Origin: Culicoidibacter larvae
Lineage (GTDB): Bacteria; Bacillota_I; Bacilli_A; Culicoidibacterales; Culicoidibacteraceae
NCBI RefSeq assembly: GCF_005771635.1
Contig: NZ_VBWP01000011.1
Coordinates: forward strand, 1-48,990
Direction: 5' to 3'
Length of the DNA: 48,990 nt
Shown: in pieces, positions 42,197 to 48,135 of the stretch
Layout: each line of letters opens with the position of its first letter
Position numbering within the stretch: the stretch's first letter is position 1
The notes under the pieces: generated by a model
Database searches by the model: none
Seen by the model: only the letters and a program-made list of their open reading frames with translations
Told to the model about the DNA's origin: nothing
Program-made: the position numbers and the translations under genes

Positions 42197-43969
42197 ATGT
42201 GTGGAATAGTAGGATACGTAGGTTGCAAGCCGGCAACCGACTTTTTGGTGAGTGGATTAAAGCGATTGGAATATCGCGGCTATGATTCGGCTGGAGTGGC
42301 AACCGTAAACGGTGCGATTCATGTACGCCGCAGTTTAGGGAAACTGGCGGCGCTTGAAGCTGTACTCAGTGAGAATCCGATAGCCGGTAATGTTGGCATC
42401 GGTCATACGCGTTGGGCAACGCATGGCAAGCCAAGTGTTGCCAATGCCCATCCTCATCAAAATGAGGCGATGGATTTTGCTGTCGTGCATAATGGCATTA
42501 TTGAAAATTATATTGAGCTAAAAAATGAATTGCAGGCAAGTGGCGTAATCTTTAGTTCGGAAACCGATACTGAAGTAATTGTTCACTTATTAGCTGCAAA
42601 TTACCAGGGGTCTTTGATTGAAGCAATGCAGGCAACCGTTGAACGGCTGTTAGGAAGTTTTGCGATTGCTGCAGTGAGCAGTGATGCTCCGGACACGATT
42701 GTTGCCGTTAAAAAAGAGAGTCCGTTGGTTATTGGCAAAGGTGCAGATGGCTTTTTACTGGCTTCAGATGTCTATGCCATTGGCGAGCATATTGATGCAC
42801 TTTGCTATGTTGATGATTTTCAATTTGTTGAGTTAAAATCATCAAGCTGCACGGTTTATGACCGTGCGCTTGAACCAGTGTTTATCAACTGGCAAGAGGT
42901 TGATCATCATGCAGTTCAAAATGAATTGGTTGGCTACCCACATTATATGTTAAAAGAAATATTTGAGCAGCCTGAAGCGATTGCCCGCACAATTGCTCAT
43001 ACGAAAGTTGCATTAGAGCAACTAACAATTGATACCAGCATAATAGAGGCGGTGACGATTGTTGCCTGCGGGACTGCTTATCATGCCGGACTTGCAGCAA
43101 ATGCGATGTTGGAACAGATGTTAAATCATCCGGTTCGGGTTGAGGTTGCCTCTGAGTTCCGTTACCGGAAACCAATTATTAATAGTCATCATCTGGTTAT
43201 TATTATCAGCCAGTCAGGTGAAACTGCTGATAGTATTGCAGCATTGCGGTTAGCAAAGGCTGAAGGTGCACAAGTGCTTGCAGTTGTGAATACCAAAGGC
43301 AGTACAATTGCCCGCGAAGCTGACTCGGTTTTATATACTCAGGCCGGTATTGAAGTTGCCGTTGCCAGTACTAAAGCATATACAACCCAGATTACCGTGT
43401 TAACAATGCTTGCGGCATACTGGGGTGGAGCAGACATAAGTGCAGCCTTGGACAAACTGATTCACCAGGTACAACGTGGCCTAGAATTAGACGGTCAAAT
43501 GATGGATTTAGCTGAAGCATTAAAATATGAACAAGATGTTTACTATATTGGTCGCGGCGTTGATGCCGTAACCGGTATGGAAGCAACATTGAAACTCAAA
43601 GAGATTTCATATATTCATGCTGAGAGTTATCCTGCCGGAGAACTCAAACATGGCACAATAGCCTTAATTGAAAACGGCACGCCGATTATTGCTATTGCCA
43701 CTGATAGTGAATTAGTAGAAAAAATGAAAAGCAACATAGAAGAAGTAGCAGCAAGAGGGGCTAAAGTATATATCTTTGCGACCCCGGCATGCGCCAAAGC
43801 ATTTGGCGCCATTGCTCAGGAAATTATGTTGTTGCCAAGCACGCCGCTGTACTTTAGTCCGATAGCGGCAATTGTGCCTCTGCAACTGCTGGCATACCAT
43901 ACCGCACTCATTCGTGGTTGTGATGTCGATCAGCCGCGAAATTTAGCAAAAAGCGTTACTGTGGAATAA
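42197..43969 (+). CDS. glmS: Glutamine-fructose-6-phosphate aminotransferase (isomerizing)
   Basis: A 590-aa GlmS making glucosamine-6-phosphate, the entry to UDP-GlcNAc and cell wall synthesis. The N-terminal Ntn amidotransferase begins MCGIVGYVG with catalytic C2, then KRLEYRGYDSAGVA and GHTRWATHGKPS. Two SIS domains follow (VACGTAYHAGLAANAML near residues 293-309; IIISQSGETADSIAALRLAK; YYIGRGVDAVTGMEATLKLKEISYIHAES). The end QPRNLAKSVTVE is typical, with the His in AYHTALIRG. GGAAGGA (42180-42186) is 10 nt from the ATG. It is preceded by its ribozyme. Confidence 0.98.
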   Translation: MCGIVGYVGCKPATDFLVSGLKRLEYRGYDSAGVATVNGAIHVRRSLGKLAALEAVLSENPIAGNVGIGHTRWATHGKPSVANAHPHQNEAMDFAVVHNGIIENYIELKNELQASGVIFSSETDTEVIVHLLAANYQGSLIEAMQATVERLLGSFAIAAVSSDAPDTIVAVKKESPLVIGKGADGFLLASDVYAIGEHIDALCYVDDFQFVELKSSSCTVYDRALEPVFINWQEVDHHAVQNELVGYPHYMLKEIFEQPEAIARTIAHTKVALEQLTIDTSIIEAVTIVACGTAYHAGLAANAMLEQMLNHPVRVEVASEFRYRKPIINSHHLVIIISQSGETADSIAALRLAKAEGAQVLAVVNTKGSTIAREADSVLYTQAGIEVAVASTKAYTTQITVLTMLAAYWGGADISAALDKLIHQVQRGLELDGQMMDLAEALKYEQDVYYIGRGVDAVTGMEATLKLKEISYIHAESYPAGELKHGTIALIENGTPIIAIATDSELVEKMKSNIEEVAARGAKVYIFATPACAKAFGAIAQEIMLLPSTPLYFSPIAAIVPLQLLAYHTALIRGCDVDQPRNLAKSVTVE

Positions 43970-45177: not shown

Positions 45178-45651
45178 ATGGCAAATATTAGTCCGTTTAT
45201 CTGGATGGATGATACTGCAGAACAAGCAGTAGATTTTTATCAAGAAGTTTTTGATGATGTACAAGTGGATAGTAAATATTACAATCTTGATGAAGATGGT
45301 AATCCAACAACGCTTTTATTAGTTAAAGTTTACATTCAAGGACAGGAATTGCGATTTTTAAATGGCGGTCCGTATTTTAAACTCAATGAGGCGTTCTCAT
45401 TGTATATCACTTGTGAGAATCAGCAAGAGCTAGACGCTATTTGGGATAAGCTTTCGGCAGAGGGTGAGATTCAAGAGTGCGGCTGGGTTATTGATAAGTT
45501 TGGTTTAGCGTGGCAAGTGGTGCCGCGAGCATACGAAGTGATGCAAGAAGAAGGTAACGCGAAACAACAGGCGGCAGTCATGCAAGCATTGCTTAAGATG
45601 AAAAAAATTGAGGTTCAGGGATTGCTGGATGCTTTTGAAAGCGCTCGATAA
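45178..45651 (+). CDS. VOC (PhnB-like) family protein
   Basis: About 157 aa. ISPFIWMDDTAEQAVDFYQEVF (residues 3-24) is the standard opening of the PhnB/3-demethylubiquinone-methyltransferase-like VOC group. Later come LRFLNGGPYFKLNEAFSLYITC, QQELDAIWDKLSAEGEIQECGWVIDKFGLAWQVVP, the second VOC half. ATG 45178 is assumed; GTG 45169 is closer to AAAGG (45161-45165) and cannot be excluded. -10 TATAAT at about 45140. Substrate unknown. Confidence 0.9.
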   Translation: MANISPFIWMDDTAEQAVDFYQEVFDDVQVDSKYYNLDEDGNPTTLLLVKVYIQGQELRFLNGGPYFKLNEAFSLYITCENQQELDAIWDKLSAEGEIQECGWVIDKFGLAWQVVPRAYEVMQEEGNAKQQAAVMQALLKMKKIEVQGLLDAFESAR

Positions 45652-45657
45652 CTTGGT

Positions 45658-45700
45658 GCGAAAAGCGACTCTTTATGAGTCGCTTTTCGCTTAGTTTTTT
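45658..45700 (+). terminator. Terminator after the VOC gene
   Basis: Perfect 14-bp arms GCGAAAAGCGACTC (45658-45671) and GAGTCGCTTTTCGC (45677-45690), then TTAGTTTTTT. Confidence 0.85.
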
Positions 45701-45708
45701 AAGTAGGC

Positions 45709-45738
45709 TTGACAGCTGGCATTATTTTGCGGTATGCT
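45709..45738 (+). promoter_or_regulatory. Promoter of the ABC-F leader
   Basis: Consensus TTGACA (45709-45714), an 18-nt spacer and TATGCT (45733-45738). It lies about 230 nt upstream of the ABC-F start codon, leaving a long 5' leader. Confidence 0.7.
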
Positions 45739-45761
45739 TATCTCGAAAAGAAAGGGTGAGC

Positions 45762-45848
45762 GTGATACATGAAGTTATAATTCATTTTCTAACAAACAAA
45801 AAAACAGCAATGATTGGCAAGGCTTTTGTCAGGGTTTTTTGTAGGTGA
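45762..45848 (+). CDS. Leader ORF 1 (28 aa) upstream of the ABC-F gene
   Basis: GTG start at 45762 with AAAGGG (45751-45756) 5 nt upstream. The peptide opens with MIHEVIIHFLTNKKTAM and ends IGKAFVRVFCR before TGA at 45846-45848. A second reading from the same RBS uses ATG 45769 and codes only Met-Lys-Leu. The C-terminus is rich in basic and aromatic residues, as in some stalling peptides. Not known to be translated; support is the RBS, its position after a consensus promoter, and the following ORF and terminator. Confidence 0.45.
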   Translation: MIHEVIIHFLTNKKTAMIGKAFVRVFCR

Positions 45849-45850
45849 AA

Positions 45851-45910
45851 ATGGGTTATCAATGTATTTATGCAAATTGGCTTTCTTTAGCTTATATTGT
45901 ATTTTTTTGA
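45851..45910 (+). CDS. Leader ORF 2 (19 aa) abutting the attenuator
   Basis: ATG 45851 follows TAGG (45842-45845) by 5 nt and begins 2 nt after the stop of leader ORF 1, so translation may be coupled. The hydrophobic peptide reads MGYQCIYANWLSLAYIVFF. Its TGA (45908-45910) touches the first base of the terminator's left arm. A ribosome held in the last codons would cover that arm and prevent the terminator from forming. Confidence 0.55.
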   Translation: MGYQCIYANWLSLAYIVFF

Positions 45911-45943
45911 GCTCGTGGACTACAATAAGACCACGAGCTTTTC
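45910..45943 (+). terminator. Intrinsic terminator inside the ABC-F leader (attenuator)
   Basis: Nine-bp arms AGCTCGTGG (45910-45918) and CCACGAGCT (45931-45939), a 12-nt loop and T4. It stands between leader ORF 2 and the ABC-F RBS AAGGAG (45954-45959), so in its formed state it would stop transcription before the gene. Confidence 0.75.
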
Positions 45944-45967
45944 ATTTGCCGTTAAGGAGATGATACA

Positions 45968-47533
45968 ATGCTATTACAAGCACAAAACCTAAGTAAGAGC
46001 TTGGGTGAACGAACATTATTTACTATTGAGCGACTAAATATTGATGAACATGCCCGGATTGGACTTGTCGGGATGAACGGCAGTGGTAAGACGACGTTGA
46101 TGAATATTTTAGCCGGGTTAGAGGCACCGGATAGTGGTGCGGTGCAAAAGCATGGCACACTTGAGATGGTTGCGCAGTTTAAATATACTGAGGATCAGAA
46201 GAGTGGCGGCGAGCTGACTTGGCAGGCACTGCGGCAAGCATTTGCAAGTGGTGCAGATATTTTACTTCTGGATGAACCTACAACCTATCTGGATACAAGT
46301 CATATTGAGCAGTTGGTTCGTAAAATCAGTCAATATCAGGGAGCAGTGCTCTGCATATCGCATGACCGGGAGTTTTTACAGGCAATTACTGATGTGATTT
46401 GGGAGCTTGCTGATGAGCAATTACATGTTTATAGTGGTAATTACCAATTTTATGTTGAGCAGAAGCAGCTGCAAGCTGATCAGCAGCAAAGTGAATATGA
46501 TGAGTATTGTAAGAAGCGCAATCAGCTTGAGGCAGCGCAAGCAGCTCAGGCGAAGCGGGCTGCCGGGCATATGAAGACAGCCAAGCATAAGATTACTGCC
46601 AGTGAGTATCAGGGTGCTAAGCTTGGGTTGGATCATAGTTTGAAGAAGAAGCAACAGGCGGCAAAGCAGATTAAGAATCGGCTTGGGCGGCTGGAGAAGG
46701 TTGATAAACCATTTGAGCAGGCGGCTTTGAAGATGAGTTTGCCACGTGCAGAGCAAGTGACCAACAAGCCGATTATTCAGTTTGCCCGGCAGAGTTGCCA
46801 GCTTTATGGGAAGCAATTGTGGCAGACACCCGGTTTTATTATTCGTGGTGGAGATCATGTTGCTATTGTTGGTGCTAATGGTAGCGGTAAAACGACTTTG
46901 ATGCGGATGATGACAGAACTTATTGGTGAAGTAACCGTAAGCCAAAATGTACGCTTCGGTTACTTCGCTCAAGATCTTTCTTCACTCAAGCAAGATAAGA
47001 CAATTTTGGAAAATGTTATGGAGGGTGCGGTGCAATCGGAAACGGTGGCGCGGACAGTACTGGCACGTTTGTTCTTTAGCGGGGATACTGTGTTTAAACC
47101 AGTTTCGGTATTATCAGGCGGGGAGCAGATGAAGGTGGCTTTCGCCAAGGTATTTCTCTCAGACATGAATGTCTTGTTGATGGATGAACCAACTAACTTT
47201 TTGGGTATTGAGGCGATTGAAGCTTTAGAATCATTGTTGAATAGTTATCCGGGAACAGTTATTTATATTACCCACGATATGGCATTTATTGAGCATACTG
47301 CCCGGCAGGTAATTAGTATTGAAAATGGTATTTTGAGTTTACATAATACGCTTGAGGAGCAACGCAGTAAGCCGGAACAAGCTGATAATAGTACAGAACA
47401 ATTAATGGTAGTTGAAACCAAGATTGCTGATGTATTGAGTCGGTTAAGTATGGCGCCAAGTGAGGCCTTAGAGCGTGAGTTTCAGGAGTTATTAGTAGAG
47501 AAGCGAGCGTTGCAGACAAAAAAAATAGTTTGA
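45968..47533 (+). CDS. ABC-F type ribosomal protection protein (Msr/Vga/VmlR-like)
   Basis: A 521-aa protein with two ABC ATPase domains and no membrane span. NBD1: Walker A GMNGSGKT (35-42), signature SGGE (79-82), Walker B ADILLLDEPTTYLD. Only about 55 residues separate its Walker A and Walker B, as in resistance-type ABC-F proteins. The interdomain linker (about 170-290) is rich in Gln, Lys and Ala. NBD2: GANGSGKT, LSGGEQMKVAFAK and DEPTNFLGIEA, where Gly replaces the usual D-loop Asp. Such proteins displace antibiotics from the ribosome. The attenuator-like leader supports an inducible role. The drug class cannot be read from sequence. Confidence 0.88.
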   Translation: MLLQAQNLSKSLGERTLFTIERLNIDEHARIGLVGMNGSGKTTLMNILAGLEAPDSGAVQKHGTLEMVAQFKYTEDQKSGGELTWQALRQAFASGADILLLDEPTTYLDTSHIEQLVRKISQYQGAVLCISHDREFLQAITDVIWELADEQLHVYSGNYQFYVEQKQLQADQQQSEYDEYCKKRNQLEAAQAAQAKRAAGHMKTAKHKITASEYQGAKLGLDHSLKKKQQAAKQIKNRLGRLEKVDKPFEQAALKMSLPRAEQVTNKPIIQFARQSCQLYGKQLWQTPGFIIRGGDHVAIVGANGSGKTTLMRMMTELIGEVTVSQNVRFGYFAQDLSSLKQDKTILENVMEGAVQSETVARTVLARLFFSGDTVFKPVSVLSGGEQMKVAFAKVFLSDMNVLLMDEPTNFLGIEAIEALESLLNSYPGTVIYITHDMAFIEHTARQVISIENGILSLHNTLEEQRSKPEQADNSTEQLMVVETKIADVLSRLSMAPSEALEREFQELLVEKRALQTKKIV

Positions 47534-47547
47534 TTGGGGTGTGGTGG

Positions 47548-48135
47548 ATGAATCAATTTGATATGATTAATTTGAAAAACGCAATTAAAGCGTTCCTTCA
47601 GGAGCATGATTGTGAGGAGACATATAATCATTGTATTGCTGTTGGTGACTATGCGGCCCAGCTTGCGGGACAATTTGCAATTGATAGTGAGAAGGCTAGA
47701 GCTGCCGGCTATCTGCATGATATTTCGGCAATTTATCCTAATAATCAACGAATTGCAATTGCTCAGCAATTAGGTATTGAATTAGTCACTGAAGAGATGG
47801 TATTGCCGATGATTATTCATCAGAAGATTTCCAAGGTGATGGCAGAGCGTCTGTTTGCAGTAGATGATGGTGAGGTTTTATCAGCCATTGAATGCCACAC
47901 AACTTTAAAAGGTGAGCATTCTAAGTTGGACTTAGTAGTATTTATTGCGGATAAGATTAAATGGGATCAACCGGGTGAGCCACCATATTTACAAGGATTA
48001 CAGAATGCGCTCAATAACTCACTTGAAGAAGCTGCATATTTCTATATCGATTATATTTTGCATAATAATATCAAAGTAGTTCATCCGTGGCTACAAGCGG
48101 GATATACGAGTTTGCAGTTTGACTTGGAAAAGTAG
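47548..48135 (+). CDS. HD domain protein, YqeK-like
   Basis: A 195-aa HD hydrolase. Metal-binding residues lie in YNHCIAVGDYAAQLAG (His near 27), AAGYLHDISAIYP (the HD pair near 58), MIIHQKISKVMAERLF and ECHTTLKGEHSKLDLVVFIADKIKWD (near 122-147). The order matches YqeK-type diadenosine tetraphosphate hydrolases, although the GxHT-like block is variant (ECHTTLKGE). ATG 47548 has GGGGTG 6 nt upstream and lies 14 nt after the ABC-F stop, so the genes form one operon. Nucleotide hydrolysis is inferred. Confidence 0.82.
   Translation: MNQFDMINLKNAIKAFLQEHDCEETYNHCIAVGDYAAQLAGQFAIDSEKARAAGYLHDISAIYPNNQRIAIAQQLGIELVTEEMVLPMIIHQKISKVMAERLFAVDDGEVLSAIECHTTLKGEHSKLDLVVFIADKIKWDQPGEPPYLQGLQNALNNSLEEAAYFYIDYILHNNIKVVHPWLQAGYTSLQFDLEK

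Follow-up and report, generated by a model that had tools for sequence, protein, structure and literature searches.

A putative drug-sensing transcription attenuator of the Vga/VmlR type ahead of a Vga-type ABC-F gene in Culicoidibacter larvae

Among the closest described systems is vmlR of Bacillus subtilis, whose leader of ~220 nt carries a tripeptide uORF (MIN) within an anti-antiterminator hairpin. An intrinsic terminator lies before the gene and a weak hairpin covers the Shine-Dalgarno sequence of the gene. The underlying logic of anti-antiterminator, antiterminator and terminator has been proven by mutants and toeprints, and induction is lost on removal of the uORF start or its Shine-Dalgarno sequence (PMC9226507). 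Tripeptide uORFs are also found in the leaders of VmlR2, with the consensus MK[L/Q], and of CplR, with MR[I/M]; the CplR terminator itself hides the Shine-Dalgarno sequence of the gene (PMC10201436). The attenuation of vgaA, vmlR, vgaL, msrD and lmrC has been cited together, and the class of drugs countered by Vga proteins is reported to stall ribosomes at the start codon of the uORF (PMC12421871).

The DNA analysed, referred to here as the window, is a stretch of 48,990 nt from Culicoidibacter larvae. It contains an ABC-F gene whose leader (Table 1) is, at a probability of about 0.85, a transcription attenuator of the Vga/VmlR type, modelled here as sensing drug through a Met-Lys-Leu (MKL) uORF. 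The leader resembles that of vmlR in its length, in the tripeptide uORF enclosed by an anti-antiterminator hairpin, in the intrinsic terminator before the gene and in the weak hairpin over the Shine-Dalgarno sequence of the gene, but the uORF encodes MKL and the protein is Vga-type, not VmlR. The tripeptide uORF is shared with the VmlR2 and CplR leaders, MKL falling within the VmlR2 consensus; unlike that of CplR, the Culicoidibacter terminator does not hide the Shine-Dalgarno sequence. This kind of switch is already known from vmlR, and the Culicoidibacter leader is very probably a new, divergent case of it.

An earlier sequence-only reading of the locus had described a consensus promoter about 230 nt before the gene, two small ORFs in the leader and an intrinsic terminator ahead of the ABC-F ribosome binding site, all of which were recovered. 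The end of the -10 element lies 230 nt from the ATG of the gene. The two ORFs are the MKL uORF and a longer frame, here termed ORF 2. The terminator hairpin consists of 10 pairs plus 2, followed by a short U tract; it was not listed by a simple consensus scan. The promoter match is by itself weak, because promoter-like matches across the region are not commoner than chance (15 versus 12.2 in shuffles). It lies directly 3′ of the terminator of the upstream gene and 12 nt 5′ of the Shine-Dalgarno sequence of the uORF, and transcription would begin near 45745. As the upstream gene has its own terminator, the leader is regarded as a separate transcription unit. The folding of the full leader has a z-score of -4.8, and none of 200 shuffles was as stable. 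A search of the whole window against Rfam gave no family match for the leader. The same window holds a glmS ribozyme (RF00234, 41969-42127, + strand, 94 bits) directly before glmS at 42197, an ordinary arrangement.

Table 1. Features of the Culicoidibacter leader and its flanking genes, in window coordinates
Feature	Position	Strand	Details and basis
Upstream gene, 3-dmu-9_3-mt domain protein	45181-45651		terminator 45658-45690 assigned to it
Intrinsic terminator of upstream gene	45658-45690	+	14-pair stem and T run
Promoter, TTGACA / 18-nt spacer / TATGCT	45709-45738	+	-35 at 45709-45714, -10 at 45733-45738; consensus match only
Long hairpin containing the uORF (anti-antiterminator)	45747-45888	+	predicted fold, z -3.65
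Shine-Dalgarno of uORF, AAAGGGTGA	45751-45759	+	conserved in leaders of relatives
uORF ATGAAGTTATAA, ATG AAG TTA TAA (Met-Lys-Leu)	45769-45780	+	proposed drug sensor
3′ arm of anti-antiterminator, also 5′ arm of antiterminator	45839-45862	+	predicted pairing
ORF 2, MGYQCIYANWLSLAYIVFF	45851-45910	+	ATG to TGA, 19 codons; probably a chance ORF across the hairpin 3′ arm
Terminator left arm and loop, 3′ partner of antiterminator	45907-45925	+	folding models
Leader intrinsic terminator, GAGCUCGUGG...CCACGAGCUU	45909-45940	+	predicted, -17.7 kcal/mol
Shine-Dalgarno of ABC-F gene, AAGGAG	45954-45959	+	partly paired, weak predicted hairpin
Vga-type ABC-F ribosome protection protein, 521 aa	45968-47533	+	profile, structure-relative and tree comparisons

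The top NCBIfam family of the ABC-F protein was Vga (NF000170) at 585.7 bits, below the cut-off of 725, and the general family of ribosome-protection ABC-F proteins (NF000355) matched with 446.7 bits, above the cut-off of 380. Its closest relatives in the PDB were Vga(A)-LC (7nhl) and VgaL/Lmo0919 (7nhn), with 432 bits to Vga(A)-LC compared with 187-241 to two structures of the ExpZ/VmlR type. Identity to the nearer Vga proteins, from plasmids and Bacillales genomes, is 42-48%. A quick tree placed the protein on the Vga side with a support of 86, and the genes of its neighbours carry the same type of leader. It sits on a long branch in this tree and for this reason is called ‘Vga-type’ and not ‘a Vga’. 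The ABC-F protein is predicted to be active in resistance. Among 395 genomes of the same class, a search at E <= 1e-75 found one further Vga-type gene (L031, in genome G356), and a phylum-wide search for nearer relatives found none. In the second ATPase domain of this protein the D-loop sequence is DEPTNFLG (residue 413, 47204-47206); the relatives in which the motif was located all have D at this place, in DEPTNFLD or DEPTNYLD.

For comparison, 40 leaders were collected ahead of Vga-type genes in other genomes and on plasmids. A uORF of the form M-x-x was found at the equivalent place in essentially all of them, beside the same or a similar Shine-Dalgarno sequence, (A/G)AAGGGTGA, and with a stop codon mostly running into TAATCC. 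MKY is the commonest peptide; MIN, MKL, MKN, MIY, MYN and others also occur. In two relatives (L128 and L129) the 12 nt of the uORF are identical to ATGAAGTTATAA; the uORF of L128 was missed by the search pattern, yet ATGAAGTTATAATCC is visible in its sequence. The gap of 9 nt between AAAGGGTGA and the ATG is shared with most relatives, and the pattern of Shine-Dalgarno sequence plus uORF occurs only once in the 2.5-Mb genome, even at <=2 mismatches. The leader of L031, the further Vga-type gene of the class, lies on the reverse strand and is not detected by the covariance model described below; it probably carries an MNK uORF, again with TAATCC after it. A strong Shine-Dalgarno sequence and an M-x-x uORF stand at the 5′ end of the leader, as in attenuators of the Vga/VmlR type, and this comparison of sequences supports the MKL uORF as the conserved leader element and as the sensor.

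The uORF lies inside the long predicted hairpin. When pairs were read outward from the uORF, the same helix was found behind it in 38 of the 41 leaders, the Culicoidibacter leader included. Seven of the Culicoidibacter pairs are changed on both sides relative to the commonest pair of the family and still pair. These compensatory pairs are supportive but not independent evidence, since they were taken from each sequence’s own fold. The uORF-anchored comparison was used in place of RNAalifold on nine relatives, which gave almost no covariation because the nine are too alike.

A covariance model was built from the leaders of nine relatives, with the Culicoidibacter leader excluded. It recovers the leaders of 30 relatives (L121-L150; L132 and L039, the latter part of the training set, are one locus). 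Its sole match in the Culicoidibacter genome at E <= 10 is 45750-45895, with 29.9 bits and an E-value of 0.0235, although the 3′ arm of the hairpin is misaligned. This match is near noise level. A search of 99 further genomes from the class gave an unrelated match with a higher score, 36.8 bits (L153, G070:C94:20962-21107), which has no ABC-F gene downstream; as a chance match can score higher, the score alone is no proof. It is the position of the Culicoidibacter match, directly before the only Vga-type gene, that convinces.

The leaders of vga(A), vga(C) and chromosomal Vga-type genes of Bacillales (L034, L118 with L033, and L121-L150) share the Shine-Dalgarno sequence, its spacing, the M-x-x uORF and the topology of the hairpin, and MKL itself occurs in L123, L128 and L129. 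In these leaders one repeated motif (CCTATTCTG / CAGAATAGG) serves both hairpin and terminator. The Culicoidibacter leader, in contrast, has no CCTATTCTG-type motif common to the two and carries other sequences there, which nevertheless pair. By sequence it is a divergent relative of the Bacillales vga-leader subgroup and not a member. The Listeria lmo0919/vgaL leaders (L036 and L075) likewise have a short uORF (MKF, MKM) followed by TAATCC and score 19-31 bits with the covariance model, similar to the Culicoidibacter leader; the Listeria protein is more distant, with 31-35% identity.

We infer ribosome stalling, read-through and drug specificity at this leader, in the following order of events. 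When no drug is present, ribosomes would complete the MKL uORF and depart. With the uORF free, the long anti-antiterminator hairpin would fold, the terminator would form and transcription would end before the ABC-F gene. A pleuromutilin, lincosamide or streptogramin A drug would hold an initiating ribosome on the uORF, at ~45754-45784, where it would block the 5′ arm of the hairpin and release the 3′ arm. The released arm could then pair with the left arm and loop of the terminator, and through this antiterminator RNA polymerase would read through, allowing the Vga-type ABC-F protein to be made. Pleuromutilins, lincosamides and streptogramin A are the predicted inducers, by analogy, because the drug class countered by Vga proteins stalls at the uORF start codon (PMC12421871); macrolides such as erythromycin are not expected to induce.

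The predicted antiterminator is composed of the pairings UUGUAG/CUACAA, AUGGGU/GCUCGU and UCAA/UUGA. In models of the nascent RNA its pairing probability rises from 0.00 with the uORF free to 0.72-0.78 with the uORF covered by a ribosome, a range that spans five transcript starts and three ribosome footprints. The computed antiterminator is exclusive with both the hairpin and the terminator, and forms when the uORF is occupied. An equally large change was seen in 2 of 300 controls in which the downstream part was shuffled. Scoring of all leaders gave a change in the same direction, with the median pairing moving from 0.39 to 0.87. An earlier metric with loose region bounds had given no change for the Culicoidibacter leader (0.53 to 0.47) because it counted a local hairpin and not the actual 3′ arm. 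The duplex alone is weak: it includes G-U pairs, its energy is -12.7 kcal/mol, and a set of 1000 one-arm shuffles contained 65 that were as good. With a transcript start at 45740 and a shorter footprint the pairing in the blocked state falls to 0.1-0.65. Folding models also give the completed terminator as the more stable structure in both states. Since the terminator wins once fully transcribed, the switch would rest on kinetics, with the decision made during transcription. This is the case in other attenuators.

The sequence-only reading had assigned the sensing role to ORF 2, proposing that a drug-stalled ribosome near its end would cover the left arm of the terminator and allow read-through. 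ORF 2 does exist, AGGTG lies close to its ATG, and its TGA, ending at 45910, does overlap the beginning of the left arm, but that position is at chance level: an ORF of 8-19 or more codons ending within 3 nt of the terminator arises in 9-46% of shuffles, depending on the settings. ORFs ending near the terminator were found in 10 of 37 leaders, including that of Culicoidibacter, and their peptides are dissimilar except for one motif that the RNA arm imposes, so that ORF 2 is not conserved. Its start region is buried in the hairpin, the AUG having an unpaired probability of ~0 in the predicted no-drug fold. A ribosome that reached the stop at 45910 in the absence of drug would lie over the left arm as well, and for this reason such a switch would not depend on drug. 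Moreover, drugs of the Vga class stall at start codons and not after 19 codons (PMC12421871). ORF 2 was rejected as a sensor on accessibility, conservation and chance; it is probably a chance ORF over the 3′ arm of the hairpin and probably not the sensor, and stalling near its end is a very improbable explanation. What stands of the earlier proposal is its class of mechanism, in which a drug stalls a ribosome on a leader ORF ahead of an intrinsic terminator and a resistance ABC-F gene; this class is well supported.

A two-step relay would give both ORFs a role, with stalling on MKL opening the hairpin and freeing the ribosome site of ORF 2, and translation of ORF 2 to its stop keeping the terminator open. 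The start of ORF 2 inside the 3′ arm and its stop abutting the terminator would suit such a relay. However, even with the uORF blocked the AUG of ORF 2 stays largely paired (unpaired 0.1-0.2), the frame lacks conservation, and the drug would inhibit its translation too; with the RNA antiterminator already accounting for the switch, the relay is hardly to be expected. It is just as doubtful that the leader is a decayed remnant of an acquired vga, in which the terminator gives only constant, low-level expression. The terminator and antiterminator sequences depart from the CCTATTCTG arms of the family, the distance of 140 nt from uORF to terminator is at the short end of the range and the branch in the tree is long, as decay would have it, but decay would keep neither the pairings, which persist despite changed letters, nor the switch, which survives the shuffle control.

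Attenuation through the MKL uORF is the preferred reading. It would mean that a probably inducible Vga-type gene with a drug-sensing leader is placed in a lineage that has few such genes. It is a little unusual that the uORF and its Shine-Dalgarno sequence have hardly changed in sequence, whereas the terminator and the pairing arms have lost the motif of the relatives and yet form the same alternatives, a pattern that suggests constraint by sequence on the former and by pairing only on the latter.

A yqeK-like HD-domain gene (47548-48135, + strand; TIGR00488, 89.7 bits, above cut-off) starts ~14 nt past the ABC-F stop codon. As no terminator was found in between, the attenuator may govern this gene too. 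A second yqeK domain is encoded on contig C4, in an open frame of 393 codons that is apparently a nadD-yqeK fusion.
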